Assembly: GCF_016863435.1 (NCBI RefSeq)
Contig: NZ_BOOW01000006.1
Location: 248,001 to 312,000 of the forward strand
From: Sinosporangium siamense
GTDB taxonomy: Bacteria > Actinomycetota > Actinomycetes > Streptosporangiales > Streptosporangiaceae
Reading direction: 5' to 3'
Length of the DNA: 64,000 bases
Shown here in pieces: positions 1,191 through 53,970 of this stretch. The notes under the pieces are model-generated. The model was not told the origin of the DNA. It worked only from the letters and a program-made list of their open reading frames with translations, and ran no database searches. A program made the translations under genes and the position numbers. Numbering within the stretch: the first letter of the stretch is position 1; each line of letters begins with the position of its first letter.

Positions 1191-1202
1191 GTCCGCTCTC
1201 CC

Positions 1203-32336: not shown

Positions 32337-33022
32337 AGATCGAAGGCATGACCGTGCGGTTCGGGGCGTTCACCGCGGTCGACGACGTCACCCTGGAGGT
32401 GCCGCCGGGGTCGATCGTCGGGCTGGTGGGCGAATCCGGATCGGGCAAGTCGACCGTGGCCAAGGCCGTGTGCGGGCTCGTGCCGTACTCCGGGAAGATC
32501 ACCGGGGTCGACGTGACGCGGGTGCAGATGGTGTTCCAGGACCCCTACGCCTCGCTCAATCCGCGCATGACCGTCGCCGCCTCGGTGGCCGAGGGGCTGC
32601 GCCTGCCGCGCGCCGCTCGCGACGCCGAGGTCGAGCGGCTGCTTGAGCTTGTGACGCTGCCGACGATATGCGCCGGGCGCTACCCGCGTGAGCTGTCCGG
32701 CGGGCAGCGCCAGCGAGTCGCCATCGCGCGGGCGCTCGGCGCGAAGCCGTCGCTGCTCGTGGCCGACGAGATCACTTCGGCGCTGGACGTGTCGGTGCAG
32801 GGCGCGGTGCTCAATCTGATCCGCTCGCTGCGCGAGGAACTCGGGTTGTCGATGTTGTTCATCTCGCACAACCTCGCCGTCGTCCGCTACGTGTCGGACG
32901 TCGTGGCGGTGATGCAGAAGGGCAAGCTCGTGGAGGTGGGGCCGGCCGAGCAGGTCGTCGGCTCACCACAGCACGACTACACGCGCGAGCTGCTTGAGGC
33001 CGTGCCCAGGCTCAGGAGCTGA
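32333..33022 (+). CDS. Peptide ABC transporter ATP-binding protein, DppF type (short)
   Basis: 229 residues, starting by ATGA overlap with the fusion gene. Walker A GESGSGKST, QDPYASLNPRMTV, LSGGQRQR, Walker B LLVADEITSALD (Ile where most have Pro) and switch His in ISHNL. Most DppF proteins are 300 or more residues; this one ends just after the ATPase fold and lacks the C-terminal oligo-HPY domain. Its last 46 bases overlap the convergent regulator gene. Confidence 0.92.
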   Translation: MKIEGMTVRFGAFTAVDDVTLEVPPGSIVGLVGESGSGKSTVAKAVCGLVPYSGKITGVDVTRVQMVFQDPYASLNPRMTVAASVAEGLRLPRAARDAEVERLLELVTLPTICAGRYPRELSGGQRQRVAIARALGAKPSLLVADEITSALDVSVQGAVLNLIRSLREELGLSMLFISHNLAVVRYVSDVVAVMQKGKLVEVGPAEQVVGSPQHDYTRELLEAVPRLRS

Positions 33023-34720: not shown

Positions 34721-35458
34721 TCAGGTGTAGCGCCGGCCCTCGTCGCGGCGGTAGCCCCACACCGCCAGCGCCGCCGTCGCCACGATCCAGACGGCCAGCA
34801 TGGCCATCGCAAGGGGATCGACGGGATAGCCGGCGACCGCCGCCCACATCAGCTCGACCGAGCCCCTCGTCGGCAGGAAGGGCGCGACGGCCTCCACGAA
34901 ACCGGGGGCCTGGCCGGGGGCGGACATGAGGCCGCCGCCGAAGGCGAACGGGAAGAAGACGACCTGCGCGACCGCGAGCGCCGCCTTCGACGGCAGGGTG
35001 TAGCCGATCGCCAGCCCCATCAGGGTGAAGGGCACCGACACCACGACCAGGGTGCCCGCCGCCAGCAGCAGGCGCGGCGGGGTCGTGGTCGCCTCCGTCA
35101 GCGTGGCGGCCACCGCCACGATGGGGACCATGCTCAGGAGCGTGGTCAGAAGGCCGGTGAGCAGGCGGCCGGCGAAACGCGGGAACGGGCCCGCGGGCAG
35201 GGTGCGGGTGTAGGGCTCGAACGGCTGGGCGCGGTCTTCCGCGATGCCTGCGCCGTATTGGAACAGGCACGTCATCATCACGGCGAACGTGACCGTCGAC
35301 GCGGTCGCGTAGGTCGCGCCCACCGGGTCGCCGCCGGCGTTGGGCACGACGAAGAAGATCATGGAGAGGGCGGGGAAGAGCATCGAGCCGATCACGGCGA
35401 TCGGCACGCGGACGACCTCCAGGAACTGATACCTGGCGTGGGTCAGGACTAGTGACAT
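34721..35458 (-). CDS. ABC-2 type transporter permease
   Basis: 245 residues with six membrane helices and the ABC-2 pattern: N-terminal ARYQFLEVVRVPIAVIGSMLFPALSMIFF, and a C-terminal FLPTRGSVELMWAAVAGYP loop before the last helix. With the ATPase 100 bp upstream it forms a half-size exporter of the daunorubicin-resistance type, moving drugs, lipids or peptides outward. The cargo is unknown. Confidence 0.9.
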   Translation of the reverse strand: MSLVLTHARYQFLEVVRVPIAVIGSMLFPALSMIFFVVPNAGGDPVGATYATASTVTFAVMMTCLFQYGAGIAEDRAQPFEPYTRTLPAGPFPRFAGRLLTGLLTTLLSMVPIVAVAATLTEATTTPPRLLLAAGTLVVVSVPFTLMGLAIGYTLPSKAALAVAQVVFFPFAFGGGLMSAPGQAPGFVEAVAPFLPTRGSVELMWAAVAGYPVDPLAMAMLAVWIVATAALAVWGYRRDEGRRYT

Positions 35459-35557
35459 CGGGGGTGGTCCTTCGTCGCGGTTTTCATGGGCGCTGGTTCT
35501 GCGGCGCTGCCTGTGTGGGGTTATCCATGCGGTGCTCTTTGCTCGCGCCTTTTGCGG

Positions 35558-36457
35558 TCACGAGGCGGCGGGTACAAGGTCGCCGGACTCGGCTCCGGTG
35601 ATCGTCAGGAACGCCTCCTCCAGGGACGTCTGACGCACCTCAAGGTCGCGGAACTCCGCCCCCGACATCACGAGGTCGCGGACCAGGCGGTCGGCGTCGG
35701 CGGTGAGCAGGTGAGTGCGGTCACCCTCGGCGGACGACTTGAGCAGGCCCGGCAGCGGCGGCACCGCCCGCATCGTCACACTCACCCTGCGCAGGCCCGC
35801 CATCCTGCGCACGCCGTCGAGGTCGTCGTCGGCGAGGATCCGCCCCCGCCCGAGCACCACGACACGCTTGGCGAGCGCCTCGACCTCCTCCAGGTAGTGG
35901 CTGGTGAGCAGCATCGTGCCGCCTTCGGCGTGGAACGCGCGGACGGCGTCCCACAACTCGTGCCTGGCGCCCACGTCCAGCCCGGTGGTGGGCTCGTCGA
36001 GGAAGACCAGCTTCGGCCGCCCCACGAACGCCAGCGCCACCGACAACCGCCGTCTCTGCCCGCCCGACAGACCCCCCGTCTGCCGGCGCCGCAGCGTGGC
36101 CAGCCCGAACCGCTCCAGCAACTCGCCGGTCGGCAGCGGATCAGGGAAGTGCGCCCGCACGAAGTCCACACACTCACCCACGCGCAGCGACCCCGGCAGC
36201 GCCGTCTCCTGCGGCGCCACCCCGATGTGCCTTCGTGCCATCGGGGTGCGGGGGTCCAGGCCAGACAACATCACCCGGCCGGAGTACGGCTTGCGCAGTC
36301 CGGTGAAGAGATTGATCAGCGTGCTCTTCCCGGCGCCGTTGGGGCCGAGCAGGCCGACCAGTTCGCCGGGGCCCACCTCCAGTGAGACGCGGTCGAGCGC
36401 GAGCACGTCGCCGTAGCGGCGGGTGACCTCGATCGCCTGGGCCAGGGGTGGGGACAT
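35558..36457 (-). CDS. ABC exporter ATP-binding protein (DrrA-like)
   Basis: 299 residues from ATG 36457, AAGGAG six bases before; upstream codons to 36502 are in the promoter. Walker A GPNGAGKST, SGLDPRTP, signature LSGGQRRR, Walker B LVFLDEPTTGLD and LTSHYLEEVEALA are all present. The C-terminal 80 residues (RVVVLGRGRILADDDLDGVRR) match the DrrA-type extension. It partners the permease downstream in the same operon. Confidence 0.92.
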   Translation of the reverse strand: MSPPLAQAIEVTRRYGDVLALDRVSLEVGPGELVGLLGPNGAGKSTLINLFTGLRKPYSGRVMLSGLDPRTPMARRHIGVAPQETALPGSLRVGECVDFVRAHFPDPLPTGELLERFGLATLRRRQTGGLSGGQRRRLSVALAFVGRPKLVFLDEPTTGLDVGARHELWDAVRAFHAEGGTMLLTSHYLEEVEALAKRVVVLGRGRILADDDLDGVRRMAGLRRVSVTMRAVPPLPGLLKSSAEGDRTHLLTADADRLVRDLVMSGAEFRDLEVRQTSLEEAFLTITGAESGDLVPAAS

Positions 36458-36488
36458 CGTCGGCTCCTTGTGGTTCACATCGGTGACT

Positions 36489-36505
36489 GGTTTGCATTTC
36501 AAACC
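36489..36505. promoter_or_regulatory. Operator 1 (GGTTTG-N5-CAAACC) over the exporter -10 box
   Basis: Perfect 6-5-6 inverted repeat. The minus-strand promoter has -35 TTGACA (36524-36519) and -10 TGAAAT (36501-36496) with a 17-bp spacer, so the operator covers the -10 of the exporter operon. Confidence 0.7.
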
Positions 36506-37844: not shown

Positions 37845-37870
37845 GCAACCCTGATGGCGTCCGGTCGTTT
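37845..37870 (+). promoter_or_regulatory. ECF-sigma-like promoter of PBP-receptor gene 1
   Basis: GCAAC (37845-37849), 16 bp, CGTTT (37866-37870), 35 bases before the start codon. AAC-N16/17-CGTT is the classical ECF (SigE-type) promoter shape. The same pair precedes the other two paralogues at almost the same distance. Confidence 0.55.
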
Positions 37871-37905: not shown

Positions 37906-40563
37906 ATGGGCACATCTCCGTTACGAGATCTCGCTATACAGTTGGCCGCCCGGCCGCGGGTCTGGAGAAGAGATGTCTTCGTGCCGGCGGTCGTTTTTGT
38001 GGGGGAGGGCGCGTCCGCCGACGCAAGGGCTTTTGCGGGTACTTTGGCGGGTGAAGTCCCTTATGCGGATATTGGTCAGGTCAGTATGGATTCGTCGGCC
38101 AGCGTGCGGGACCTAGTCGAACACGCTGCCGGTGAGGTTGGGGCGCTTGGAGCTAGAGTGCCTGGTTCGCTGCTTCCGGCGCCCCGCTTCCCCCTCACCC
38201 AGATCATCCTGTGGGCACTGGACCTCGGTGAGGAGCGCACCACCGAATCCCCCCGAGCCAGAACCGCGGTCTATCGCGAAAAGCTCCGTGAATGGCGCCG
38301 CCAGCGGGTGCCGTTTCGCTCTCTCGGCGGCAGGCTTGAATATTTGGTCAGGTTCCTGAGCGGTCCCACCCTTGGCGCGGCGTTGGCCACCGTCATCCTC
38401 ACGGAATGGCTCGACACCGCAGGTCCGATCAACTTCGCCATCCTGGTGGGAACGTTTGCCGCGGCCATCGGCTTGGCGCGGCTTCTCGCCGGCTTCTGGT
38501 TCAGCGGGACGTTTCGTTATGGCTGGTTTTTCCGCCAGAGGTACAAGCCGCGGAAACGCTCCGAGGAGCTCGCCGGCTATCTCTACCGGATCGGTGAGGC
38601 GGAGCGCGACGACGTGGAGGTCGACCGGCTGCTCGTGAACGCCTTCATCGAGGACCTGCGGCTGGCGTACAGCCGCAGGATGCCGTGGCCGGGGTGGGGC
38701 CGCAGCGGCTATGCCGTACTCCACCTGGGCGACGCCGGTGAGGGGAGCGCCGGGCGGCGGTTCCTCGCGGTGCTGCACAAGGTGCTAACCGACACCGGGC
38801 TGAAGGTCCCGCTGCTTATCGTGGCCCACTCGCCCGAATGGTCGCCGGCGTTGTGCGGTGACCACCCGTCGGTGCTGCTGCCGAAGCGGGAGGCCGCCGA
38901 GGACGTCAGGCGGGCCCACGGCACATGGCGGACGCGCACCGCCCACCTGGCGCCGTGCCCCTATCTCGCCGTGGACGCCAAAGGCATTCGCGGCATCGAA
39001 CCCGCGGGGGCGCCGCCGCGCCGGCGCCGCGCCATCAGCAGGCTGCGTCCCGTGGGCTATTGGCTGATCGCGGGGGCGGCCGTACTCATCCCCTTCGCCT
39101 GGGGCGGATGGACGGTGCTGCGCCCCTGCGAACCCGGCCTCACGGCCATCGAGGGCGAATGTGTGGGCGTGAGCACCGCCACCAAGAACTTCGACCCCGC
39201 GCTGATCCCGATCCTCAACCTGATCGGCGCGGAGAACGACCGGATAGCGCTCAACACCAAGGTCTTCCGCGTGGTCTACTTCGGCCCGCTCACCCAGCGG
39301 CCGGGCAGCACCGACCCGGGCGACAAACTGATCGGCACCGCCGCAGAACTCGTCGGGGTCTATGCCAGGCAGAAGGAATACAACCAGGTCAAGGGCGACT
39401 GGAAGCTGATGGTGGAGTTCGCCAACCCCGGGCAGGACTACGCCTACGCCGACGTGGCCGCCCGCACCATCGCCGAGCGGGTGCCGCACGACCGCACGAT
39501 CGCGGCGGTCGTCGGGCTGGGCTGGAGCCGAAAGGCGGTGAAGGACGCCATCGGCATCCTCAACACGGCGCAGATACCGGGGCTCAGCACCACGGCGACG
39601 GCGGAGAACCTCTCGATGGTTGACGGTGATCCGTCCGGATATTTCTACCGGCTGCCGCCCTCCAACGCCAGGCAGGCCGTCGCCGCGGTGCACTGGCTCA
39701 GGGCGCTGCCGGTGTCCAAGGACAAGACCATGAAGGAATATCCGCGGGTGGGGATCCTGCGGTTCTCCGACGCGTTGGAGCTTTACAGCGCGGACCTGGC
39801 CGAGCAGTTCGCCAAACGTTACAAGGGCCGGGGGGAGTCTTCGATCTATGACTTCTCCGATTCCGCCGGGTTGAAGAAGACGATTCAGAAGGCCTGCGAC
39901 GACGGGGTCGAGGTGCTGTTATACCTCGGGCGCGGCGACCAGTTCCCGGCGTTGAAGGAGGGCTGGGGCAGTCACTGTTCGGGCAAGAAGGTCGTGATCC
40001 TCGCCGGTGACGACATCGCCAACGCCGTGGCGACCGAGGTGCTGGAGCACGGCGAACGGCACAGCCTCGACCTGCGTTACATCGCGCTGAGCGACCCTCG
40101 GCCGCCGAACTCCACCAAACCCATTCCGTATTACGGGACGGTGGTCCAGCGTGTGCTGAGCGAGACCGAGGTCGAGCGGGGGAGGAAGGCCAAGGAGGCC
40201 GGCCGCACACCGCCGGTCGCCCTGCCGCCGGACCACGCCGTGCTGGCGCATGACGCCACCCTCGCGGTCACCACCGCCTTCGACCGCAGTCGCAGCCGGG
40301 GGGACATCGTGGACGTGCGCGCGGGAGTTCAGGAGCGCCTGCGCGGCCTTAAGGTCGACGGCGCGAGCGGCTCCCTGGAATTCGCCTCCGACAGAAATCA
40401 GAACGAGGCCCTTAAACGCCCCCTGTGGCTCATGTCTGTTTACCCCGGTCAACCCCTGACAGCGGAATTGAGTTGCACGCCGGTGGGCGAGGAACCTGAA
40501 TGCGGCAAGCCCCTTGGCGGGGATACGGTGAAGCCGAAGGAGAAGGAGGAAGAGGACAACTAG
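37906..40563 (+). CDS. Transmembrane protein with degenerate NTPase-like cytoplasmic part and extracellular type-1 periplasmic-binding domain, copy 1
   Basis: 885 residues. ATG 37906 is chosen because MGTSPLRDLAIQLAARPRVWRRDV aligns without gaps to the GTG starts of the two paralogues. Residues 20-150 look like the start of a P-loop NTPase (VFVPAVVFVGEG) but have no GxxxxGK[ST]. Helices lie at about 155-170 and 175-199. Residues 205-380 are cytoplasmic, with RLLVNAFIEDLRLAY, a Walker-B-like VLHLGDAG and PLLIVAHSPEW. A third helix (384-404) leads outside to paired Cys (408, 419) and a LivJ/ANF-type binding fold to about 830. Looks like a receptor; its ligand is unknown. Confidence 0.75.
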   Translation: MGTSPLRDLAIQLAARPRVWRRDVFVPAVVFVGEGASADARAFAGTLAGEVPYADIGQVSMDSSASVRDLVEHAAGEVGALGARVPGSLLPAPRFPLTQIILWALDLGEERTTESPRARTAVYREKLREWRRQRVPFRSLGGRLEYLVRFLSGPTLGAALATVILTEWLDTAGPINFAILVGTFAAAIGLARLLAGFWFSGTFRYGWFFRQRYKPRKRSEELAGYLYRIGEAERDDVEVDRLLVNAFIEDLRLAYSRRMPWPGWGRSGYAVLHLGDAGEGSAGRRFLAVLHKVLTDTGLKVPLLIVAHSPEWSPALCGDHPSVLLPKREAAEDVRRAHGTWRTRTAHLAPCPYLAVDAKGIRGIEPAGAPPRRRRAISRLRPVGYWLIAGAAVLIPFAWGGWTVLRPCEPGLTAIEGECVGVSTATKNFDPALIPILNLIGAENDRIALNTKVFRVVYFGPLTQRPGSTDPGDKLIGTAAELVGVYARQKEYNQVKGDWKLMVEFANPGQDYAYADVAARTIAERVPHDRTIAAVVGLGWSRKAVKDAIGILNTAQIPGLSTTATAENLSMVDGDPSGYFYRLPPSNARQAVAAVHWLRALPVSKDKTMKEYPRVGILRFSDALELYSADLAEQFAKRYKGRGESSIYDFSDSAGLKKTIQKACDDGVEVLLYLGRGDQFPALKEGWGSHCSGKKVVILAGDDIANAVATEVLEHGERHSLDLRYIALSDPRPPNSTKPIPYYGTVVQRVLSETEVERGRKAKEAGRTPPVALPPDHAVLAHDATLAVTTAFDRSRSRGDIVDVRAGVQERLRGLKVDGASGSLEFASDRNQNEALKRPLWLMSVYPGQPLTAELSCTPVGEEPECGKPLGGDTVKPKEKEEEDN

Positions 40564-40776
40564 GCTTCGCCGTACTCGGCGGGGTTGACGGCGTCGGGGG
40601 ACGTCATGTTATAGGTGAGCGCTGTGGTGGTCGCACCGGTGTTCGTTGGTGTTGCCGCGGGGCGCGGGGTGTGCTCCGGGGATTTCGGCCCTTGGTGATT
40701 TTCGGGCTTTTAAGGCAGGCTATTAAGTTCGTATGTTCCTGTGGCTTGCCGTCGAGACCCTGACTTTTACGCTGAG

Positions 40777-40803
40777 GCAACTTTCTGTATGGAGCGTTCG
40801 TTT
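40777..40803 (+). promoter_or_regulatory. ECF-sigma-like promoter of PBP-receptor gene 2
   Basis: GCAAC (40777-40781), 17 bp, CGTTT (40799-40803), 37 bases before GTG 40841. The flanking bases ACTTTC...TTCGTTT are shared with copy 3. Confidence 0.55.
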
Positions 40804-40840
40804 ATCGGGTGGATCGAGGCAAGGTGCAACTGGGGGGATC

Positions 40841-43690
40841 GTGAGTGCTTCTTCATTACAGTCACTGGCAGTGCGGATGGTGCGGCGTCCGCGTGTCTGG
40901 AGAAGGGATGTCTTCGTCCCGATAGTCATTTTCACCGGCGATAAGCAGGGCGACGCCGAGAGTTTCGCGCGGACGGGCAAGGGCAAGGTGCCTTACGCGA
41001 AGGTGGAGTCCGCGAGGGCCGATCAGGCTGAGGTGAAATCCGCGGGAGCCGGTGAGTTCGCCGCTCTCCGAAAGTTGATCGGCGAGGTGATCGCTGAGGA
41101 TAAGGGACTCGGGAGCAAGGTGGCTGGGTCGCTACTGCCCGCACCGCGTTTTCCGCTCACCGAGATCGTCCTGTGGGCGCTGCAGCAACGTGACGACTTT
41201 GAGAAGTCGCAGAAGGTAGAAGGGAAGGCTCAGCCGGACGCGAAGCTCGACTGGGCGGACAAGATGCGGGAAAGGCGGCGGGAGCGCTCCTCGGCGTGGT
41301 CGAAGGGCGGCTCTTTCGAGTCACTGGTGCAGTCGGTGGGCGGGGGACTCGAATATCTGGTGCGTTTCCTCAGCGCCCCGGCCGTCGGTGCGGCCGTCGT
41401 GACCGTCACTCTCACCGAGTGGCTCGACACTGCGGGCCTGATCAACGTGGGGATCCTGGCCGGAGCCGTGTTGTCGGCGTTGGTCGCAGCGGGCCTGCTG
41501 GCGGGCCTCTGGTCCAGCAGCGAATTCCGCTACGGCTGGTTCGCTCGCCAGAGGTACGAACCACGTAGGCGGGGCGAGCAGCTCCACCTTTACATGCAGC
41601 GCATCGCCTACCCGGAGTCCTCTCAGGCAGAAGTGGAGCCGCTGCTCATGAACGCCCTGCTGGAGGATCTCAGGCTGGCCTACAGCAGGAGGCATCCCTG
41701 GCCGGGGTGGGGGCGAGGCGGCTATGCCGTACTCCTGCTCACCAATGCGGGGGCGAACACTGTCGGTCGGAGATTCCTCACCGTCATGCACGAGGTGCTC
41801 GCCGTCACCGGGCAGAAGGCCCCACTGCTGGTCGTGACGTCTGCCGATAGCTGGCCTGAGGAAATCTGCGGAGACGAACACCCCTCATGGACTTCGCTGG
41901 AACCTGTCGCTGAACCGTCGAAGGTATCTCCCGCCGGTGAGCCACCGGAGGCATCCCCTAAAGATAAGCGAACGGGGACATATACCAAGTGGTTGGCCAG
42001 CTCCTCCCGCGTCGCTCCGTGCCCCTATCTCGTAGTCGACATGGGGAAATGGGATAAGCACCGCGGCTTCACGGAGGAGGGGGCTCGGCGGCTTGTCGGC
42101 CGCATGCGGCCGATCGGCTACTGGCTGATCGTGGGGATGACCGTGCTTTTCCCTCTCGGGCTCGGCGGGTGGACCGTGCTGCGCCCGTGTGAGCCCGGAC
42201 TCAGTCTCGTCGAAGGCGAGTGTGTGGGAGTGAGCAACGCCACCAAGAACTTCGACCCCGCACTCGCGCCGATCCTCAATCTGATCAACAAGGAGAACGA
42301 CAGGATTCCATCGGATGCCAAGATGTTCAAGATCGTCTACTTCGGTCCGCTGACCACCCGTCCGGGGAGCCGCGCCCCCGGCACGAGGGTGGACGGCACG
42401 TTTTCCGAACTCGCCGGCGTCTATGCGAGGCAACGGAGGTACAACAACAACAAGAACAGCCGGTGGTTGTATGTGAAGTTCGCCAACTCGGGTGAGGACT
42501 TCAGGCATGCCGACGTGGCTGCTAGGGCGATCGCCGAACGTGCGGCCGAGGATCGGGCGATCGCCGCGGTGATCGGACTCGGGTGGAGCCGGACGTCGGT
42601 GCAGAGGGCGATCGCCACTCTCCACGGGGTGCAGGTGCCGATGCTCAGCACGACCGCGACGGCCAACAGGCTGGCGGTTTTCGGCCGCGAGAGATCCGGC
42701 TACTTCTATCACATGGCCGCACTTAACTCGCGGCAGGCCCTTGTCATCGCACGCTGGCTTGAGCGGGGACTGCCGGCCGCCCTCGACCGGAAGGTGAGAC
42801 CGAACCCGAAGGTCGGGATCCTCCGGTTTACGAACCCCGAGGAGATCTACAGCGTCGACTTGGCCGAGGCATTCCAGGATCGATATGCCGGCGAGTCGGA
42901 GTTCTATGACTTTCAGGACCCGACCGGTCTGAAGCGCGAGATGGACAGGGCGTGCGACGACGGCGTCGAAGTGCTTTTTTATACGGGCCGTGGGGACCAG
43001 CTGGCGGTGTTGAAGGAAGGCTGGGAGAGCTTCTGCGCCAAGAAAAAGGTGGTGCTGCTCGCCGGCGACGACATGACGAACACCGCGTTGGCCGAGGTCG
43101 CGCGCAACGAGACTGGGCACGACATAGACCTGCGCTTCATCGCGCTGAGCGATCCCGCGCCGGAGAAGAAGTCTGGGCTCCGCGGTTATGAGGGGCATGT
43201 CGTCAAGGTGCTGAACGAGGTGAAGAGCGAACTCGCCAAGAGCGTCGGCGACGACCAAAAAGGGGGCCTCGCCCCAGTGGTGCCGCCGAGCCACGCCATG
43301 CTCGCCCACGACGCCGCCTTGGCCGTCACCACCGCGGTCGACCGCATGCTGGCCGCCAGCTGGAGCGAGGCCACCGACGTTCGCGCCGGCACCCAAGAGC
43401 ATCTGCGCGGGCTGGAGGTCACCGGAGCGACCGGCGAACTCCGGTTCTCGGCGGAGCGGCGCCGGGAAGACGAGAAAAGGTCGTTGTGGCTGTATTCGAT
43501 CTTCCCCAAGCGGCCGCACAAGTTTGAAATGCGCTGCACACCGGTTGGCAACGTCGCCAACTGCACGTCCGACATGACAGAGGAGCCGATCGGCCCTAAG
43601 GACGACACCCGCGCCGGTCCCCCACCGGCCACGCCTGGCCCCAGTGCAAGCCCGAGCAATAGTGCGGCTCTGCCTTCCAGCCCTTCATGA
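40841..43690 (+). CDS. Transmembrane PBP-receptor-like protein, copy 2
   Basis: 949 residues from GTG 40841 (GGGGGG three bases upstream); paralogue of the neighbours throughout. Same order: N-terminal VFVPIVIFTGDK in place of a Walker A, helix pair after YLVRFLSAPAVGAAVVTVTLTEWLD, cytoplasmic LLMNALLEDLRLAYSRRHPWPGWGRGGYAVLLLTNAG, third helix GYWLIVGMTVLFPLGLGGW, Cys pair in RPCEPGLSLVEGECVG, extracellular binding fold from NATKNFDPA. It differs by an insertion after the Walker-B-like part (SLEPVAEPSKVSP...) and a 30-residue Pro/Ser C-terminal tail. Confidence 0.75.
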   Translation: MSASSLQSLAVRMVRRPRVWRRDVFVPIVIFTGDKQGDAESFARTGKGKVPYAKVESARADQAEVKSAGAGEFAALRKLIGEVIAEDKGLGSKVAGSLLPAPRFPLTEIVLWALQQRDDFEKSQKVEGKAQPDAKLDWADKMRERRRERSSAWSKGGSFESLVQSVGGGLEYLVRFLSAPAVGAAVVTVTLTEWLDTAGLINVGILAGAVLSALVAAGLLAGLWSSSEFRYGWFARQRYEPRRRGEQLHLYMQRIAYPESSQAEVEPLLMNALLEDLRLAYSRRHPWPGWGRGGYAVLLLTNAGANTVGRRFLTVMHEVLAVTGQKAPLLVVTSADSWPEEICGDEHPSWTSLEPVAEPSKVSPAGEPPEASPKDKRTGTYTKWLASSSRVAPCPYLVVDMGKWDKHRGFTEEGARRLVGRMRPIGYWLIVGMTVLFPLGLGGWTVLRPCEPGLSLVEGECVGVSNATKNFDPALAPILNLINKENDRIPSDAKMFKIVYFGPLTTRPGSRAPGTRVDGTFSELAGVYARQRRYNNNKNSRWLYVKFANSGEDFRHADVAARAIAERAAEDRAIAAVIGLGWSRTSVQRAIATLHGVQVPMLSTTATANRLAVFGRERSGYFYHMAALNSRQALVIARWLERGLPAALDRKVRPNPKVGILRFTNPEEIYSVDLAEAFQDRYAGESEFYDFQDPTGLKREMDRACDDGVEVLFYTGRGDQLAVLKEGWESFCAKKKVVLLAGDDMTNTALAEVARNETGHDIDLRFIALSDPAPEKKSGLRGYEGHVVKVLNEVKSELAKSVGDDQKGGLAPVVPPSHAMLAHDAALAVTTAVDRMLAASWSEATDVRAGTQEHLRGLEVTGATGELRFSAERRREDEKRSLWLYSIFPKRPHKFEMRCTPVGNVANCTSDMTEEPIGPKDDTRAGPPPATPGPSASPSNSAALPSSPS

Positions 43691-43741
43691 ACGAAGTCGT
43701 TAATCGCCCTGGCTCATGCCTGTTTGCCTGAGTCGTCCGCT

Positions 43742-43822
43742 GACGGCGGGCGAGGATCCAGAATGCGGCAAGCCGGCCGACATCATGGATCTACCGAAGT
43801 AGAAGGAGGAAAGGGATAATTT
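43742..43822 (+). pseudogene. 3' remnant of a fourth PBP-receptor gene
   Basis: This stretch after gene 2 reproduces the last 80 bases of gene 1, including GAATGCGGCAAGCC and GAAGGAGGAA with the stop region, although gene 2 itself ends differently. About 26 of the first 30 positions match gene 1 (40485-40515). It is best read as the scar of a deleted copy or of unequal crossover in the array. Confidence 0.65.
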
Positions 43823-43853
43823 GCCGTTGCCATTCTCTGTCGGTCGTGCTTGA

Positions 43854-43880
43854 GAAACTTTCGGCTTGAGGTGTTCGTTT
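43854..43880 (+). promoter_or_regulatory. ECF-sigma-like promoter of PBP-receptor gene 3
   Basis: GAAAC (43854-43858), 17 bp, CGTTT (43876-43880), 37 bases before GTG 43918, matching copies 1 and 2 in spacing and distance. Confidence 0.55.
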
Positions 43881-43917
43881 GCCGGAGGGGCCAAGGTTGG
43901 ACGCAAGAGGGGGAGAC

Positions 43918-46554
43918 GTGAGCGCGTCTGCATTAGGGGCTCTGGCGGTGCGGATGGCACGGCGTCCGCTTATCGGGAGAAAGGATGTCTTCGTCCCGGC
44001 GGTCATATTCACCGGGGAGGACGGTGCCGTCCACGCCAGGAGATTCGTGGGAACGGTCGCGGGCGAGGTTCCCTACGCGGAGCTGAATTCCTCGCACAAC
44101 GGCAGGGACACTCAGATTAGAGATCTGGTCGAGCGGGCGGCGGGCGAGGACGGGGATCTCGGGGCGGGGGTCTCGGGGTCGCTGCTTCCGGCGCCGCGCT
44201 TCCCGCTCACCCAGATCATCCTGTGGGCGCTGAGGCATCGCGACGAGCAGGCCGCGCTGTGGGAGAACGGCGAGGAGGCCCCCGACGGGTCACAGCGGGC
44301 CTTGGACTCGGCCTACCGGGAGCCGCTGCGCCAATGGTCCCGTGGGCGCACCCCGGTGCGGTCGCTGAGCGGGCGCTTCGAATATGCGGTGCGTTTCCTC
44401 AGCGCGCCCTCCATCGGCGCCGCCGCGGTGACCGTCGTCCTGACCGAATGGCTCGACACCGGGGGCTTGGTCAACGTGTGGATCCTGATCGGAGCCGTCA
44501 CGTCGGCGTTCGCCCTGGCGGGCCTGCTGGCCGGCTTCTGGTCCAGCGGCACGTTTCGCTACGGCTGGTTCGCGCGCCAGCCGTACATTCCTAGAGGGCG
44601 CGGCGAGTGGCTCGCCGGTTATGTGCGGCGCGTCGCCGAAACCGAGAAGGGCGATCCGGAGATCGTGGAGCGACTGCTCGTGAACGCCCTGCTGGAGGAC
44701 CTCAGGCTCGCCTACAGCAGAGGACGACCCTGGCCGGGGTGGGGAAGAAGCGGATATGCCGTGCTCCTGATCGAGGACGCCGGGCACGGCACCGTCGGCC
44801 GGAGGTTTCTCACCACACTGCACAAGGTTCTCGCCGACACCGGACGCATGGCCCCGCTCCTGGTCGTCGCGGCGGCGGACGAGTGGCCCGCGGACCTGTG
44901 CGGAGGGGACCACCCCACAGCGGTCAGGGTGAACCCGGCGGCCAGTGACATGCTGAAGGTCTATGCCGAGTGGCGGACCCGCAGCGCCAAGGTCGCCCCC
45001 TGTCCATACCTCGTGATCGACACCGGCATGTGGCGCGGTGACGCGGGCGCCGTGGACATGGGGCGCAGGCGGGTGATCGGGCGTCTGCGGCCGGTCGGTT
45101 ACTGGCTGATCGCGGGCACGACCGTGCTCGCCCCCCTCGGGTTCGGCGCTTGGACCGTGCTGCGGACCTGCGAGCCGGGGCTCAGCCTCCTCGGCGGGCA
45201 GTGCGTGGGGATGAGCAACGCCACCAAGAACTACGACCCGGCGCTGATCCCGATCCTCAACCTGATCAATAGGGAGAACGACCTCATCCCGCCGTCCGCG
45301 AAGGTGTTCAAGGTCATTTACCTGGGTCCGCTGACCACTCCCTCCGAGAGCGGCGACCCCGGCACGAGAGTGCTCAGCACCGCGTCGGAGCTCGTGGGCA
45401 TCCATGCCAGGCAGGTGGAGTTCAACGAGCGGGGTCAATGGCGCATGCGTGTGGAGTTCGCCAACGCGGGAGAGGACTACAGGTTGGCCGTCGAGGCCGC
45501 CGAGGCGGTCGCCGAACGGGCGGCAGAGGACCGGTCGATCGCCGCGGTGATCGGCCTGGGATGGAGCCGCAAGTCGGTGCAGAAGGCGATCGGTGTCCTG
45601 CGCGGGGCGCAGATGCCGGCGCTCACCACGACCGCGACGGCCGACAGCCTGGCGGAGGTCGACGGCGAGAGGTCCGGCTATTTCTATCGCATGGCTCCCC
45701 CCAACTCCCAGCAGGCGCTCGTGGCGGCTCACTGGCTGGGGCAAGGTTTGCCCGCCGCCCCGGGTGAGAAGCTGGATCCCAACCCGAAGGTCGGCATCCT
45801 CCGCCAGGACGACGCCGAGGAGCTTTACAGCGCGGACCTCGCGGATTCCTTCAAGCGGAAATACGTTGGCGAGTCGGTTGTGCACGACTTCCGCGACTCG
45901 GCCACGCTGAAGCGCGAGATACGCCGGGCCTGCGACGACGGCGTCGACGTGCTCTTCTACACGGGGCGCGGGGAGCTGCTGGCCGCCGTGCGGCAGGGGT
46001 GGAACGACTTCTGCGCCGACGAGGTGGTGGTGCTGGCCGGAGACGAGGCGGACACCGCCTTGGCGGAGGTCGAGCGAGACCCGCAAGGGCACCGCGTCGA
46101 CCTGCGTTTCCTCGCGCTGAGCAATCCCGCGCCGCACAAGCAGGGGGTGCTGGGGAGATATGAGGAGCACGTGAAACGGGTGCTGGAGGGGGCGCAGACG
46201 GATCTGCGCAACAGCGTGCCGAAGGGGCAGGAGAGGCGCGCCGGCAACCTCATGTTGCCGCTGAGCCCCGCCATGCTGGCGCACGACGCCGCCCTGGCGG
46301 TCACCACGGCGCTCGACGGCCTGCTGACCGGCTGGGCGGAGGGCATGGACGTGCGAGCGGGCGTGCAGGAGCATCTCCGCGGTCTCAAGGTCACCGGCGC
46401 GACCGGTGAGATCGAGTTCTCGGCGAAGCGGGAGCAGCACGACGCGCTGCACAGGACTGTATGGCTGTATTCGATCTTCCCAAAGAAGCCGCTTGAGTTT
46501 GAGATGAGCTGCGCGCCGACCGGGAGCGACGCGAATTGCACCTCTTCGGGGTAG
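43918..46554 (+). CDS. Transmembrane PBP-receptor-like protein, copy 3
   Basis: 878 residues from GTG 43918 with GGGGGAGAC before it. N-terminal VFVPAVIFTGEDGAVHARRF occupies the Walker A position without Lys-Ser/Thr. Helices follow YAVRFLSAPSIGAAAVTVVLTEWLD; the cytoplasmic block has GYAVLLIEDAG (Walker-B-like Asp/Glu) and PLLVVAAADEW (sensor-like strand). GYWLIAGTTVLAPLGFGAW is the third helix, and the Cys pair sits in RTCEPGLSLLGGQCVG. The outer domain has the type-1 binding-protein pattern SRKSVQKAIGVLRGAQMPALTTTATADSL split across two lobes. Last gene of the array. Confidence 0.75.
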   Translation: MSASALGALAVRMARRPLIGRKDVFVPAVIFTGEDGAVHARRFVGTVAGEVPYAELNSSHNGRDTQIRDLVERAAGEDGDLGAGVSGSLLPAPRFPLTQIILWALRHRDEQAALWENGEEAPDGSQRALDSAYREPLRQWSRGRTPVRSLSGRFEYAVRFLSAPSIGAAAVTVVLTEWLDTGGLVNVWILIGAVTSAFALAGLLAGFWSSGTFRYGWFARQPYIPRGRGEWLAGYVRRVAETEKGDPEIVERLLVNALLEDLRLAYSRGRPWPGWGRSGYAVLLIEDAGHGTVGRRFLTTLHKVLADTGRMAPLLVVAAADEWPADLCGGDHPTAVRVNPAASDMLKVYAEWRTRSAKVAPCPYLVIDTGMWRGDAGAVDMGRRRVIGRLRPVGYWLIAGTTVLAPLGFGAWTVLRTCEPGLSLLGGQCVGMSNATKNYDPALIPILNLINRENDLIPPSAKVFKVIYLGPLTTPSESGDPGTRVLSTASELVGIHARQVEFNERGQWRMRVEFANAGEDYRLAVEAAEAVAERAAEDRSIAAVIGLGWSRKSVQKAIGVLRGAQMPALTTTATADSLAEVDGERSGYFYRMAPPNSQQALVAAHWLGQGLPAAPGEKLDPNPKVGILRQDDAEELYSADLADSFKRKYVGESVVHDFRDSATLKREIRRACDDGVDVLFYTGRGELLAAVRQGWNDFCADEVVVLAGDEADTALAEVERDPQGHRVDLRFLALSNPAPHKQGVLGRYEEHVKRVLEGAQTDLRNSVPKGQERRAGNLMLPLSPAMLAHDAALAVTTALDGLLTGWAEGMDVRAGVQEHLRGLKVTGATGEIEFSAKREQHDALHRTVWLYSIFPKKPLEFEMSCAPTGSDANCTSSG

Positions 46555-47372: not shown

Positions 47373-49508
47373 TCAAGCCTCCTCCCAAAGCTGGTCATCC
47401 TTAGCGGAGTCCGCACGAGCCCCCAAACGGGTGGTCAGAGCGAGGGCCTTGGCGAGCAGAGGGTGGCCGTCGCCGAGTGCCGGCCGGTCGTGGGCGAGGT
47501 GGTCACGCCTGGTCAGGGTGTGGACGAGCGCCGCCGCCGAGTCCAGATCGCCCGCCTGCACCAGGCGGACGGCTTGGTCGTGACGCGCCGTCAGGATGTG
47601 AAGGTGGGTGGGGTCGATGCCTGAGGCGGTCAAGGCCGCGACCTCGTCGGCATGGGGGCACGGGTCCTCGTCGAGGGCGTGGGCGGCGCGGGCCAGCAGC
47701 AGCAGGGTCTCCGCCTGCCCCGCGGGATCGTCGCCGATGTGCGTCTCGGCGCGCCTGACGTCGTGAAGCAGGTCTGCGGCGCCGTCGAACTCGCCGCCCG
47801 ACATCAGGACGCGGGCCAGCGCGCGCCGCAGGGTGAGCGTCACGGGGTCGGCCTCGCCGCCGCGGCGGGGCGAGGCGAGCAGATCCCGCAGGATGAGCTC
47901 GGCCGCCGTGAGGTCGCCCGTGCTGGCGAGCGCCAGGGCGTGCACCCGACGCGCGTCGGCGGCGAGCCGGTGGGACACGTGCTGCTCGAACCACTCGGAG
48001 GTGGCGCACGAGTCGGCCAGCAGGCGCAGCGCCGCGTCGGGGTCCTCCAGTTCAAGCTCGATCTCGGCGAGCTTGACCACGTCGAACTGCGTCTTGTAGC
48101 CGTGCCGCGGCAGGGATTCGACCCGGTGGCGGTGGGCCTCCGTCAGGTGGTAGCGCGCCTCGGTGGGGTGGCCCGCGGCGAGAAGCGCCTCGGCGAGGGT
48201 GACCCGCGCGGCCGCGGTGTTGGCGTTGTCGAGGCCGCCCAGCCGGTCCCGGCGGTCGTTGAGCACCTCCTCGGCCAGCCGCACCCCCTCAACCACCCGC
48301 CCGGCGGCGTAGCAGGCGCGGGCCCGCGCCTGCTCGGTGAGAGTACGGCGGCGCCACACGGCGCCATCGTCGCCGCCCTCGGTCCTGCCGCCCTCGGTCC
48401 TGGCGCCGTCGCGGTCGCGCCGGGCGTGCTCGATCTCCACCATGGCCGCCAGGGGGCGGCCCGCGTCGAGCAGCGCCTCGCCGAGGTTGTGCCGGGCGCG
48501 GGCGACATAAGCCACCTTGTCGTGCTCGGGGAGCGGGGCGTCGTCGACCTGCGCCGACAACCGGAACGACGCCTCGGCCTCGGCGACGTCGCCATAGCGC
48601 AGCAGCGCCAGCCCCCGCCTGCTGGCCGCGTCGAGAAGGTCGCGCACCTCGGCCGGCTCCTTGGGCGAGGCGGAGAGCAGATCAACGAGCAGGTCCCCGG
48701 CGCGGGCGGCACGCTCGGCGAGCGGTGTGCTCGTGAGCAGCGTGCGGGCCATCATGCCGACCGCCGCGGCCCGTTTGCGGGGCTCGGCTCCGTCGGACAG
48801 CGTGACCATGTGCTCGGCGGCGGCGAGGTCGTGCAGCCACTCCCCGGCCAGCGGCACCAGGTCACGCTCGAACCAGTGGGCCGCGAGCGCCGCCGCCTGC
48901 CGCTCGGCGGGCCCGTCGAGGTCGCCGGTGAAGGCGTGGAAGGCCAGATCCGACAGGCGGGCCGCGCACCGCTCCGCCCACCCCGGCGGAACCGGTGCGA
49001 CCGTCAGCGCGGCACCGCGCAGCACCTGCGTGAGATGGGCGGCATATGCCACCACCTGGCCGTTCCAGGCGGCGGCCGCCACACGCCCGCACGGCCCATC
49101 GGGCCAGGCCGGAGGTTGCGAACGTGTCGCCCGCCCGGGCTTGGCCCGCTTCTCGGAGTTGGCGATGTCGCCGATGCCGAGCCCGACCTGGGTGACCAGG
49201 GTGCGCTCGGCGAGGTGGAAACGCGCGATGTGGAGCAGCCCGAGTGTGGCGTGCGAACGCAGCGCGGCCACCGTGCGCGGCCGGTCGCACTGGCCGAGAG
49301 CGGGGAAGCCGGCGAACGCGTGATGGAGCGCGAGTGAGACGAGCACCCGGCGGCTCTTCACCTCGTTGTAGAGCCAGACCGCGCTGCGCCCGCCCGGGGG
49401 CACCTGTGCCGCCACATCCTCGGCTCGCACCAGGTGGTATTCCCCTCGCCTGAGCACCCCCGCCGCGGCGGCCCCGATAGCCTCAAGCCGTTTTTCCTGA
49501 CTTGACAC
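47373..49508 (-). CDS. TetR-like HTH fused to a TPR-repeat domain
   Basis: 711 residues from GTG 49508 (GGGGAGAGG before it). Residues 6-70 follow the TetR DNA-binding pattern: AIGAAAAGVLRRGEYHLVRAEDVAAQV...AVWLYNEVKSRRVLVSLAL. Residues 70-230 are helical, perhaps a ligand or dimer domain. From about 290 to the end lie eight or more tetratricopeptide-like helix pairs (ARHNLGEALLDAGRPLAAM, ARVTLAEALLAAGHPTEA, RRALARVLMSGGEFDGAA). A DNA-binding protein with a protein-interaction scaffold is the simplest reading; target unknown. Divergent from the dioxygenase gene. Confidence 0.75.
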   Translation of the reverse strand: MSSQEKRLEAIGAAAAGVLRRGEYHLVRAEDVAAQVPPGGRSAVWLYNEVKSRRVLVSLALHHAFAGFPALGQCDRPRTVAALRSHATLGLLHIARFHLAERTLVTQVGLGIGDIANSEKRAKPGRATRSQPPAWPDGPCGRVAAAAWNGQVVAYAAHLTQVLRGAALTVAPVPPGWAERCAARLSDLAFHAFTGDLDGPAERQAAALAAHWFERDLVPLAGEWLHDLAAAEHMVTLSDGAEPRKRAAAVGMMARTLLTSTPLAERAARAGDLLVDLLSASPKEPAEVRDLLDAASRRGLALLRYGDVAEAEASFRLSAQVDDAPLPEHDKVAYVARARHNLGEALLDAGRPLAAMVEIEHARRDRDGARTEGGRTEGGDDGAVWRRRTLTEQARARACYAAGRVVEGVRLAEEVLNDRRDRLGGLDNANTAAARVTLAEALLAAGHPTEARYHLTEAHRHRVESLPRHGYKTQFDVVKLAEIELELEDPDAALRLLADSCATSEWFEQHVSHRLAADARRVHALALASTGDLTAAELILRDLLASPRRGGEADPVTLTLRRALARVLMSGGEFDGAADLLHDVRRAETHIGDDPAGQAETLLLLARAAHALDEDPCPHADEVAALTASGIDPTHLHILTARHDQAVRLVQAGDLDSAAALVHTLTRRDHLAHDRPALGDGHPLLAKALALTTRLGARADSAKDDQLWEEA

Positions 49509-51952: not shown

Positions 51953-53122
51953 TCACAGGGGGTGGGCGCCGAGGCGGTGGAGGGCGTCCAGGGCGGCGGT
52001 GGTGGGATCGCCTCCTCGGGTGATGAGGTGGACTTCGAAGTCGTCGGCGGCGAGTTCCTTCTCCAACGCCGGCCAGGCGTAGGCGGCGCTTGTCTCGATG
52101 GGGAGGCCGCCCCGGCCCGATCCGAACAGTGGCAGGCAGATAGAGCGCAGTGGCGGGTCGAACGCGTGCCGCTCGTCGCGGGCCAGGGCGAATGCCCCGT
52201 GCACGGCGCGCATCACGGCTGCCGGTTCGATGGCGTAGTCGTCGGTGTGCGGGCGGGGGATGGCGGTCGCCGCGTGGTAGACGCGCCGGATGCCCTGCCG
52301 TACCAGGTCGCCGGACGAGGTGGGCACGACCGTGCCGGGGGCCACGGGGACGCCGAAGCGGCCGTGCTTGTGCATCCACTCGTACAACTCGCGCTGGAGC
52401 ACGTCGTCGACGACCTCGCCCAGCGCGTTGCGCCGGGCGGCGACGTTGCGCAGGGTGCCCGACAAGGATGATTTGAAGGTCTTGGCCATCTCCATGTAGA
52501 TGTTCTCGGAGGAGACCACCACGTCGATGTCGCATAACGTCTCGACCGGTTTGCCATGCAAGGTGAGGGGCACGTCACGGCCCCGGTGGGTGACGGCGAG
52601 ACGGAAGACCGGCCCCGTGGGAGCCGGTCCGGTCGAAGGTGGTGTGCTCGCCCGCTGGCAGAGTTCGAGGATCTTGTCGGCGACGTGTTCGAGGATCAGC
52701 CGCTCATGATGTTTGCGAAACCTTTCGACGCTCACGCCGTACACCTCGGCGGCCTTGCGGCGGCGGTCCTGCGCGGCCATGTCGCGTGTGCCGGGCGCGG
52801 TGCCGAGGGTGAACGCCGTCGCGTCGGCGAGTGTGCCCTCGCCGAGCGCCGCCACCACGCGGTCGAGCAGCGTGGTGATCGTGGTGGGCAGCAGGCCGTC
52901 GGCGGTGGGCAGGCCGAGGCGGTCGGCACACGAGGTCAGGGCGGGGAGCGGCGCCTGGCGGAGTCTGAGGAGACCTCGCTCCCGCAGTGTCCGCAACTCT
53001 CCGATCAGGTCGGTGTGTGGCAGCTCCGGGGACTCAGGCATGTGGTAATCGTTCCACTCCGGGGGAGGCGCGACTAGGCTGCTCGGTCTGCGCTGGTTTG
53101 TGGAGCGCTTGCCGGAACTCAT
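51953..53122 (-). CDS. Macro-domain (ADP-ribose-binding) protein
   Basis: About 389 residues from ATG 53122; a later ATG at 53039 is possible, and no clear ribosome site favours either. The first 170 residues (TDLIGELRTLRERG, DRRRKAAEVYGVSVERFRKHHE) look like an effector-associated helical region also seen in caspase/TPR conflict proteins. Residues 200-389 form a macro fold: DIDVVVSSENIYMEMAKT, VPTSSGDLVRQGIRRVYHAA, and CLPLFGSGRGGLPIETSA, the phosphate loop. Macro domains bind or remove ADP-ribose. It follows a broken effector-associated-domain gene on the same strand, suggesting an ADP-ribose-linked immune locus. Confidence 0.75.
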   Translation of the reverse strand: MSSGKRSTNQRRPSSLVAPPPEWNDYHMPESPELPHTDLIGELRTLRERGLLRLRQAPLPALTSCADRLGLPTADGLLPTTITTLLDRVVAALGEGTLADATAFTLGTAPGTRDMAAQDRRRKAAEVYGVSVERFRKHHERLILEHVADKILELCQRASTPPSTGPAPTGPVFRLAVTHRGRDVPLTLHGKPVETLCDIDVVVSSENIYMEMAKTFKSSLSGTLRNVAARRNALGEVVDDVLQRELYEWMHKHGRFGVPVAPGTVVPTSSGDLVRQGIRRVYHAATAIPRPHTDDYAIEPAAVMRAVHGAFALARDERHAFDPPLRSICLPLFGSGRGGLPIETSAAYAWPALEKELAADDFEVHLITRGGDPTTAALDALHRLGAHPL

Positions 53123-53253
53123 CGAGCCTGGCGAATACTCACAGCACCTTCCGTAATTTGCATTTCGGCTTTTCCGGACTGCAAGGGCGGAATGCGACAA
53201 CCTCCTAGAGGCGCAATGTGTGCGTGCAGCTGGCGCATTGCACACGATATGCC

Positions 53254-53732
53254 CTACGAGGGTGGAACGGCGGATCGTTCTGGGATGGACGGACGGGTCG
53301 CGGAGGAGTGGGTTACGTCGAGGCCGCGCGCCCTGCGGGTGCGGGCGATGTCCGGCAGCGAGCGGTGCTCGTGGTCGAGGCGCAGTGCGGCCGATCCGGC
53401 CGGCGCGGACTGCAGGCAGAACGCCTGGAGGGGGCCGGTCGGGACGAGGTGCCGGATAGGGGTGTCGCGTAACGCTTGAAGAGCGTGCTTTCCGGATATA
53501 ACTCATGTGCGCCGTTGATCAATTCGGCGAGTCCGGGCCCTGCCATGCCGTGGGAGAGTTCACGTGCGACCTGCCGCCAATAGAGTTCGGCGCTGAGGGT
53601 GCCGAAGCGTGGGAGACGACTTCGATCGGCGCCGATGTCCCCTAGGAGAGCGTCGTTCTTGGCCTCGGAATCAAAAACCTGGGCGAGAGCGGTGAGGACG
53701 CCGTACCTTCTGACAATGTCATATGTGATCAT
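53254..53732 (-). pseudogene. Effector-associated-domain protein, frameshifted
   Basis: From ATG 53732 the frame encodes MITYDIVRRYGVLTALAQVF, then DSEAKNDALLGDIG and LAELINGAHELYPESTLFKRY, a helical domain like the effector-associated adaptors of actinobacterial conflict systems. Near 53470 the coding-like signal moves to another frame, which reads RDTPIRHLVPTGPLQAFCLQ and continues to a TAG at 53256-53254. The original frame instead runs through Pro/Arg/Ser filler to 53313. A single-base insertion explains this. The upstream start TTG 53828 is also open. A truncated adaptor may still be made. Confidence 0.55.
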
Positions 53733-53970
53733 TAGGCGGTCGCTTGATACTGGTGGGACACCGTTTGTCGGTCTATAGCGATATATCTCGGTGCCGATCC
53801 CTGATTTCTCTCGTCGATGATCAGCCAATCACGCTCACCCATGGAACGGGCATACCAGTATTCTGGTTTGCGCCCTTAGGGTAGGTCTCTGTCGTCGCAT
53901 ATTAAAGTCGGCATAGTCGTTTCGAGCTACCTGGGTTTCCCGTGAGCTCAAGGTATAGGCAGGGTGGTCT

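Follow-up and report, generated by a model that had tools for sequence, protein, structure and literature searches.

We analysed a 64-kb stretch of the Sinosporangium siamense genome (contig positions 248,001–312,000; genome size 8.86 Mb), referred to here as the window, which contains three tandem genes for large membrane proteins of one architecture. Each protein joins a type-1 periplasmic-binding protein (PBP1) fold outside the membrane to an inner domain that descends from STAND/AAA+-like P-loop ATPases and has lost its Walker A motif and lid. We favour, with some reserve, the view that they are one-component transmembrane (TM) receptors, with the PBP1 domain as a sensor outside and the pseudo-STAND domain as an output scaffold inside. 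In our view, the most valuable result of this study is a series of present-day architectures, from two-gene forms to forms such as those of the window, together with the finding that related receptors exchange their inner parts.

The three proteins (copies 1–3, in gene order) are clearly paralogous, copies 2 and 1 being 60% and 56% identical to copy 3, and a search of the organism's own genome with copy 3 found only the three window genes. An initial annotation had described a tandem array of paralogues with a dead P-loop nucleoside triphosphatase (NTPase) inside, an inserted membrane hairpin, a third helix and a LivJ/ANF-type fold outside, and all of these elements were borne out by the open reading frames (ORFs), profile matches in both directions, hydropathy and structural models described below.

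Inner domain: a STAND-like ATPase core without Walker A

No GxxxxGK[ST] motif is present in the first 432 residues of copies 1–3. The strands that follow the lost P-loop can still be aligned with those of living NTPases; for example, the sensor strand of copy 3 reads PLLVVAAADE against PLVVVATSAQ. The acid position of the Walker-B strand is E in copy 3, T in copy 2 and G in copy 1, so that an acid is retained in copy 3 only, and it is D in all 10 members of the live ATPase set.

A hidden Markov model (HMM) of the dead domain, searched against the ORFs of the collected loci, matched ATPases with an intact P-loop: L183 (GPPGSGKT; E = 1.5e-12), L050 (GPSGSGKT; 1.7e-10) and L189 (GTGGSGKS; 1.8e-9), the corresponding values in a larger search space being 2.8e-11, 3.2e-9 and 3.3e-8. 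After iteration, the profile comprised 38 fused N-terminal parts and six other ORFs, three of which were ATPase genes (L183, L189 and L132), while the remaining three (L137, L140 and L219) each overlapped a module ORF at its beginning and resemble fragments of frame-broken members. HHalign comparison of the dead profile with 13 live ATPases gave a probability of 98.7 over 270 columns (21% identity), with VLLIEDAG paired with ILLLDNAH and the residues TG, followed by a gap, placed on the P-loop. In the reverse direction, a live-ATPase profile of 10 sequences, built without the window sequences, ranked the window trio first in the organism's own genome (E = 7.9e-11, 1.8e-8 and 4.6e-8), followed by matches at 1.3e-5 and 8.5e-4. 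A profile (A4) searched against PDB sequences gave a single match at chance level (E = 2.8).

Structural modelling pointed in the same direction. The inner part of copy 3 alone (43918–45174) was modelled by AlphaFold2 with pLDDT 84.7 and pTM 0.87. In VIA-align, the top match was 8bob (Z 8.8, root-mean-square deviation 3.4, 166 aligned residues), which we take from its title (maltose system) to be the STAND protein MalT, and Cdc6 (1fnn) scored Z 8.0; all 50 listed rows were P-loop ATPases, as judged by title.

In STAND proteins, the core is followed by a lid and a winged helix with a GxP motif. The window proteins match the live-ATPase profile only up to position 348 of 690 and the next TM helix begins at residue 403, which indicates that the lid and winged-helix half has been lost.

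The three helices of the copy 3 model (Table 1) have TM-like hydrophobicity. By hydropathy scan, 22 of 23 fused forms from the organism's own family have a TM-like stretch besides the last one, whereas such a stretch is absent in 9 of 15 fused forms from other families. Because of this near-universal presence in one family and frequent absence elsewhere, the hairpin looks like a later insertion. Two TM-like stretches, that is, a full hairpin, were found in L148 and L185, which are fused forms outside the own family.

Live ATPase partners and a series of present-day architectures

We fetched 59 loci across the class that carry the TM helix and PBP1 ectodomain (the TM-PBP module). At 16 of these, including L144 and L188, a separate TM-PBP gene is immediately preceded by a STAND-like ATPase gene; the distance from the ATPase stop to the nearest candidate start of the TM-PBP gene is −4 to 84 nt in 15 of the 16 pairs, the sixteenth being not scorable. 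Short module genes without a preceding ATPase also occur (L193–L196 and L206).

The Walker A motif GK[ST] is present in 11 of the 16 separate ATPases (the Lys is kept in 13) versus 1 of the 38 fused N-terminal parts, four of which (L137, L140, L143 and L219) are incomplete and could be missing the P-loop stretch (Fisher P = 4.9e-7, a value that ignores kinship). The single exception among the fused relatives, L217, has its motif (APLPPGKT) away from the expected place, so that Walker A is absent in 37 of 38. On the other hand, a genome from another family of the order (L050) encodes the same fused architecture with an intact GPSGSGKT and passes the Pfam cut-off for AAA_22 (34.8 bits, cut-off 27). 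Thus, the living forms include a two-gene live ATPase and receptor, a live fusion, a dead fusion and a dead fusion with a hairpin. The two-gene pairs and the live fusion of L050 show from what the dead fused NTPase arose.

Related receptors carry different inner parts

Pfam analysis of 57 of the 59 module proteins (the fragments L201 and L212 were left out) assigned, at E ≤ 0.001, TIR_2 to six proteins, DUF4062 to five, Pkinase and EAD1 to four each and NB-ARC to one. A quick IQ-TREE tree of 81 modules was supported by SH-aLRT only; L037, L038, L201 and L212 were omitted as broken or cut off by a contig end, and the inner part was unidentified in 7 of the 81 rows. In this tree, a kinase receptor (L205), a TIR-NB-ARC receptor (L216) and a dead-NTPase receptor (L217) form one clade with SH-aLRT 99, whose sister contains four EAD1 receptors and the dead-NTPase receptor L135. 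The TM-PBP parts of L205 and L216 are 62–63% identical, and each is 53–55% identical to that of L217. Overall, the ten inner-part labels require 13 changes on the tree. It is mainly because of this exchange that we call the dead NTPase an output domain: it occupies the slot in which relatives keep signalling domains.

Several individual receptors were also observed. L145 (6167–9211, minus strand) and L150 (4527–8033, plus strand) combine TIR, a Ser/Thr kinase and the TM-PBP module. L216 (5377–9024, minus strand) is a 1216-residue ORF with TIR, an NB-ARC-like ATPase carrying GMGGVGKT, a TM helix and a PBP1 ectodomain; it is a single example, its NB-ARC score (19.1 bits) is under the cut-off of 23.5, and it is a NOD-like receptor (NLR)-like protein with an extracellular sensor. 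At L213 (6640–11569, plus strand), two TM-PBP receptors lie in tandem with receptor parts 60% identical, and EAD1 scores 24.3 bits in the first of them, against a cut-off of 24.2. DUF4062 precedes the module in L197, L200, L202, L203 and L207; this domain is a TIR-like NADase family according to a 2026 preprint (PMC13174449).

Outer domain: a PBP1 fold with a conserved predicted pocket

AlphaFold2 modelling of copy 3 from a 40-sequence alignment (the three window proteins and 37 from 49 named loci) gave a mean pLDDT of 86.2 and pTM of 0.66. Foldseek matched the outer part to the PBP1 protein 4evs (E = 1.9e-15) and also to mGluR/CaSR ectodomains, and the outer-part sequence profile matched LivJ (4gnr) at E = 1.2e-10. 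The outer part is thus of the PBP1 fold. Single sequences were far less informative: searches of the window proteins against Pfam, NCBIfam, PADLOC and PDB gave weak ANF_receptor matches or nothing. In Pfam, copy 1 alone matched no family at E ≤ 1, copy 2 matched ANF_receptor at E = 9.8e-5 with 22 bits, under the cut-off of 25.4, and copy 3 was the sole copy above it (25.5 bits).

Six Cys residues (431/442, 685/712 and 878/887 in the 891-residue numbering of copy 3) are invariant in all 42 sequences of the nearer family, and they may pair as disulfides. Three of the six are invariant, and a fourth is conserved in >90%, in wider class sets of 33 and 57 sequences. The single conserved Cys pair of the initial annotation is to be corrected accordingly. 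All 57 class-wide module proteins have the GR of the YxGR signature.

In the alignment to 4gnr, S563 and T587 fall on Ser and Thr, D722 on an acid, Y650 on Tyr and R697 on Tyr; these are pocket positions of LivJ. The three copies do not differ at S563, T585-A586-T587, Y650, R697 or D722, and these residues are also conserved across the family. The ligand is probably amino-acid-like or another carboxylate. The divergence between the copies had been read as a sign of different ligands; this reading finds no support, the residues at the canonical amino-acid-pocket positions being identical, and was rejected.

Distribution and selective constraint

Homologues were found at 49 named loci, which, with the conservation of the inner domain described below, makes the arrangement more than a product of chance. 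A search of 296 class genomes with the TM-PBP module profile, in which no more than a handful of candidates per genome were scored, gave a match of ≥98 bits in at least 55 of them. In a sample of the phylum, 5 of 246 genomes matched at E ≤ 1e-25; all belonged to the own class and one was the own genome, and presence outside the class was rejected on this basis. Plasmids gave no match to our patterns, one scan of viral contigs gave 14 pattern matches, none of which was confirmed, and a narrow-pattern scan of genome contigs gave 43 matching stretches, again none confirmed.

The mean pairwise identity is 40.9% for the inner domain and 36.2% for the outer one (780 pairs), and invariant residues of the inner domain fall in the motifs LPxPRFPL, DLRxAY and WPxWGR. 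The dN/dS ratio (NG86, six pairs) is 0.15–0.50 for the inner domain and 0.17–0.59 for the outer one. The dead domain is maintained by selection, and the receptor family as a whole is real, widespread and selected.

Gene organization and genomic context

The coordinates of the genes and their elements are given in Table 1.

Table 1. Features of the receptor array in the window
Feature	Position	Strand	Remarks
Receptor copy 1, 885 residues	37906..40563	+	Dead STAND-like NTPase, TM hairpin, TM helix, PBP1 ectodomain
Receptor copy 2, 949 residues	40841..43690	+	As copy 1, with an extra Pro/Ser-rich C-terminal tail
Receptor copy 3, 878 residues from GTG 43918	43918..46554	+	ORF opens at TTG 43879 (891 residues)
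AAC-N16-CGTT element	37847..37869	+	59 bp 5' of copy 1; candidate ECF-sigma-like promoter
AAC-N17-CGTT element	40779..40802	+	62 bp 5' of copy 2
AAC-N17-CGTT element	43856..43879	+	62 bp 5' of copy 3
Copy 3, strand 1 and degenerate P-loop	43996..44028	+	PAVIFTGEDGA where L183 reads PVVVAVGPPGSGKT
Copy 3, membrane hairpin inserted in NTPase domain	44365..44544	+	Helices 163–192 and 197–222; model and hydropathy
Copy 3, Walker-B-like strand VLLIEDAG	44761..44784	+	Living NTPases have ILLLDNAH at the aligned place
Copy 3, sensor-like strand PLLVVAA	44854..44874	+	Living NTPases have PLVVVATS at the aligned place
Copy 3, third TM helix	45085..45162	+	Helix 403–428; Arg-rich inner flank, leads to ectodomain
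Copy 3, PBP1/ANF-type ectodomain	45169..46545	+	Six conserved Cys, YxGR signature

For copy 3, we preferred the GTG start over the TTG that opens the ORF because of the paralogues and the common upstream element. This element, AAC-N16/17-CGTT, resembles a promoter of extracytoplasmic function (ECF) sigma factors. It occurs five times on the plus strand and eight times on the minus strand of the window, where three per strand would be expected from base composition, and three of the five plus-strand matches are those preceding the trio genes. Among 23 relatives checked, it was also found 5' of L053, L054 and L071. The intergenic gaps within the trio are 277 and 227 bp and, since each gene is preceded by such an element, the three are probably transcribed each on its own promoter. 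Tandem duplication is not confined to the window, as Nonomuraea sp. SBT364 has a receptor pair (L077, 8890–14221, plus strand) that is itself preceded by another ORF belonging to the same cluster.

At 35 of the 49 named loci, the receptor gene is accompanied by three or more of six recurrent neighbour families, which defines one conserved chromosomal place. The families, named by Pfam on L056 alone, are citrate synthase, a pdxH-like oxidase, a class-V aminotransferase, a SpoIIE regulator, rhomboid and enoyl-CoA hydratase. The flanking aminotransferase and citrate synthase are always on the opposite strand (29 of 29 and 33 of 33, respectively), and for this reason the receptor gene looks monocistronic at that place and an operon with a fixed partner was rejected. 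The genes beside ten module loci (peptidase M3, MFS, ABC exporter, SpoIIE, KdpD, UPF0182 and GGDEF) showed no common theme. The window trio and its nearest kin, L053–L055 (45–56% identical), sit at other places, and the neighbours of L053–L055 and of the window have in common, besides the receptors, a generic likeness of ABC ATPases only.

Several genes of the ATP-binding cassette (ABC) type lie in the window: a Liv-type permease pair at 204–2126 (minus strand; ~36 kb away from the trio), an ABC-2 type pair at 34721–36502, and ORFs at 29551–33022 that look by eye like an oligopeptide transporter. The latter two sets are not of the type that works with PBP1-fold proteins, and no common cluster of them is found next to the homologues. 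Just downstream of the trio, 47373–49508 (minus strand) encodes a TPR protein with a sub-threshold likeness to FxSxx_TPR (46.1 of 300 bits). At 7 kb from the trio, an EAD1 ORF (53313–53828, minus strand; E = 4.8e-11) stands beside an ORF with a sub-threshold Macro match (51953–53506, minus strand), and the two could be a conflict-system pair.

Proposed mechanism and alternatives

We propose that the Cys-stapled PBP1/ANF clamshell binds a small molecule outside the membrane and that its closure would be relayed by the third TM helix and the hairpin to the cytoplasmic pseudo-NTPase. The latter, a STAND-type core deprived of its lid and winged-helix half and no longer able to bind and hydrolyse NTP in the usual way, would serve as an output scaffold whose shape or assembly state signals the presence of the ligand to a partner protein. 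It fills the slot taken elsewhere by TIR, TIR-NB-ARC, DUF4062, EAD1, a Ser/Thr kinase or a separate live STAND-like ATPase.

Several observations weigh against this proposal. No same-strand partner gene recurs at the 49 named loci. Foldseek found nothing for the inner domain at E ≤ 0.001 (best E = 0.099), and VIA-align itself rates a Z of ~8 as middling. The HMMER score to the live ATPases is carried by the half with the helix, Walker-B and sensor strands (32–33 bits), the P-loop piece as a separate domain scoring 10.2, 2.8 and −0.6 bits in L183, L050 and L189, respectively; the dead-domain HMM reached only 0.0019 and 0.085 on L133 and L190. Only two of 11 separate ATPases passed a Pfam cut-off (L183, AAA_22; L187, NPHP3_N). 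As the loci were picked by the TM-PBP module, the pairing count is silent on ATPases standing elsewhere. A dN/dS of 0.50 for the inner domain in two pairs means moderate constraint only. Finally, the window sub-clade consists entirely of dead NTPases, and the exchange of inner parts is seen in distant relatives only. Our confidence in the receptor-scaffold proposal is kept at a moderate level, given the weakness of the P-loop half when the match is divided and the fact that the domain exchange lies outside the window sub-clade.

Other explanations were considered. First, the inner domain could be a nucleic-acid receptor, with the PBP1 domain merely setting a threshold or anchoring it. Kaur et al. 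(2021; PMC8195603) propose nucleic-acid binding for inactive STAND domains, and the STAND-like core of the inner domain is likewise inactive; however, it is tethered to the membrane by the inserted hairpin, relatives carry TIR, kinase or EAD1 in this position, none of them a nucleic-acid receptor by name, and no vWA or MoxR was found by Pfam among 10 window neighbour ORFs, so that we consider this idea unlikely. Second, the pseudo-NTPase could form a hetero-oligomer, as its inactive subunit, with a live STAND-like ATPase whose gene lies elsewhere, much as ORC-type rings combine active and inactive subunits (PMC8195603). Live family ATPases are indeed present in 24 of 121 genomes of the order at E ≤ 1e-15, but the own genome has no member at this threshold, the matches ranking after the trio being those given above, and such a complex seems improbable for the window proteins. 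Third, we see little probability that the inner domain is a plain anchor or stalk without signalling and the receptor a decoy or ligand buffer: a partner was not found and catalytic residues are lost, but the inner domain is as conserved as the ectodomain, with the invariant motif residues noted above, and signalling domains stand in the same place in relatives.

That the proteins are membrane-tethered substrate-binding proteins feeding an ABC importer is very improbable, although the ectodomain has the LivJ fold and such proteins are presumably named as ABC substrate-binding in databases, since a LivH/LivM-type permease was found at E ≤ 1e-6 in none of 128 homologous loci (2.17 Mb, with some overlap; the own Liv operon was found as a positive control), the own Liv permeases lie far from the trio, the attachment is through a 400-residue cytoplasmic domain and no signal peptide or lipobox was seen by eye. 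A role in an ABC importer was rejected on the permease count. The initial annotation had likewise argued for a sensor rather than an importer, with which the TIR, kinase and EAD1 inner parts of relatives also agree; the inner part did not prove to be an unrelated membrane domain, nor do homologues adjoin ABC permease genes of their own, with the proviso that the window has other ABC genes upstream of the trio and that L194 has an ABC exporter-type gene as a neighbour.

Comparison with known systems

The closest described likeness is System 4 of Kaur et al. (2020; eLife 9:e52696, PMC7159879), a two-gene actinobacterial system of EACC1 and caspase. According to that paper, some of its C-terminal variants have TM helices with an extracellular PBP domain on the caspase; its constant part is a caspase, whereas the inner part of the trio is a pseudo-STAND NTPase with an inserted hairpin. 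Pfam found no caspase in the three window proteins and no EACC1 among the 10 neighbours, no EACC1-named model having been searched. The iSTAND and iSTAND2 domains of the vWA-MoxR ternary systems (Kaur et al., 2020, 2021) are similarly inactive STAND NTPases, but these belong to ternary systems with vWA and MoxR genes, whereas the trio are membrane receptors with an extracellular sensor. No NTPase-TM-PBP protein is named in the accessible parts of PMC7159879 and PMC8195603. Thus, the claim that the architecture belongs to no named family is only partly right, as the TM-PBP part, if not the NTPase form, had been noted on a caspase.

With STAND NTPases (MalT, NB-ARC and NPHP3_N) the trio share the core fold and the Walker-B strand, but they lack Walker A, lid and winged helix and have a TM hairpin inserted. 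LivJ/LivK and ANF/mGluR-type ectodomains have the same PBP1 fold and pocket Ser, Thr and acid; the trio ectodomain differs in being integral to a receptor, in its conserved Cys residues and in replacing a pocket Tyr by the Arg of YxGR. Actinomycete Ser/Thr kinases with an extracellular PBP domain, represented here by L205 and L209, have the same TM-PBP module with a kinase instead of the pseudo-NTPase. A literature search, mostly without subscription papers, returned no title or beginning of an abstract describing the NTPase-TM-PBP architecture, which does not imply its absence from print.

Implications

Our data suggest that the trio pair an outside small-molecule sensor with an inactivated cell-death-type ATPase, as an extracellular-sensing branch of immune-like signalling. 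More tentatively, they may belong to a modular superfamily of cell-surface receptors in filamentous actinomycetes, in which a PBP1 clamshell and one TM helix feed immune or cell-death machinery: TIR, TIR-NB-ARC, DUF4062, EAD1, kinase, caspase (Kaur et al., 2020) or a partner STAND-like ATPase; in the window lineage, where the STAND part is fused, catalytically dead and furnished with a membrane hairpin, the signal would pass through a pseudo-STAND scaffold. Such a superfamily could be an extracellular counterpart of NLRs that senses kin or competitors, not phage. Since these receptors are likely to be read as ABC substrate-binding proteins, they would be hidden in databases. Bacterial TIR, NB-ARC, EAD and STAND modules are known mostly as intracellular sensors of invaders; if the above view is true, immune and death modules would also stand under an extracellular small-molecule sensor and be tied to cell–cell communication, and the series of present-day forms lets one ask what role a STAND domain has once its NTP switch is lost.

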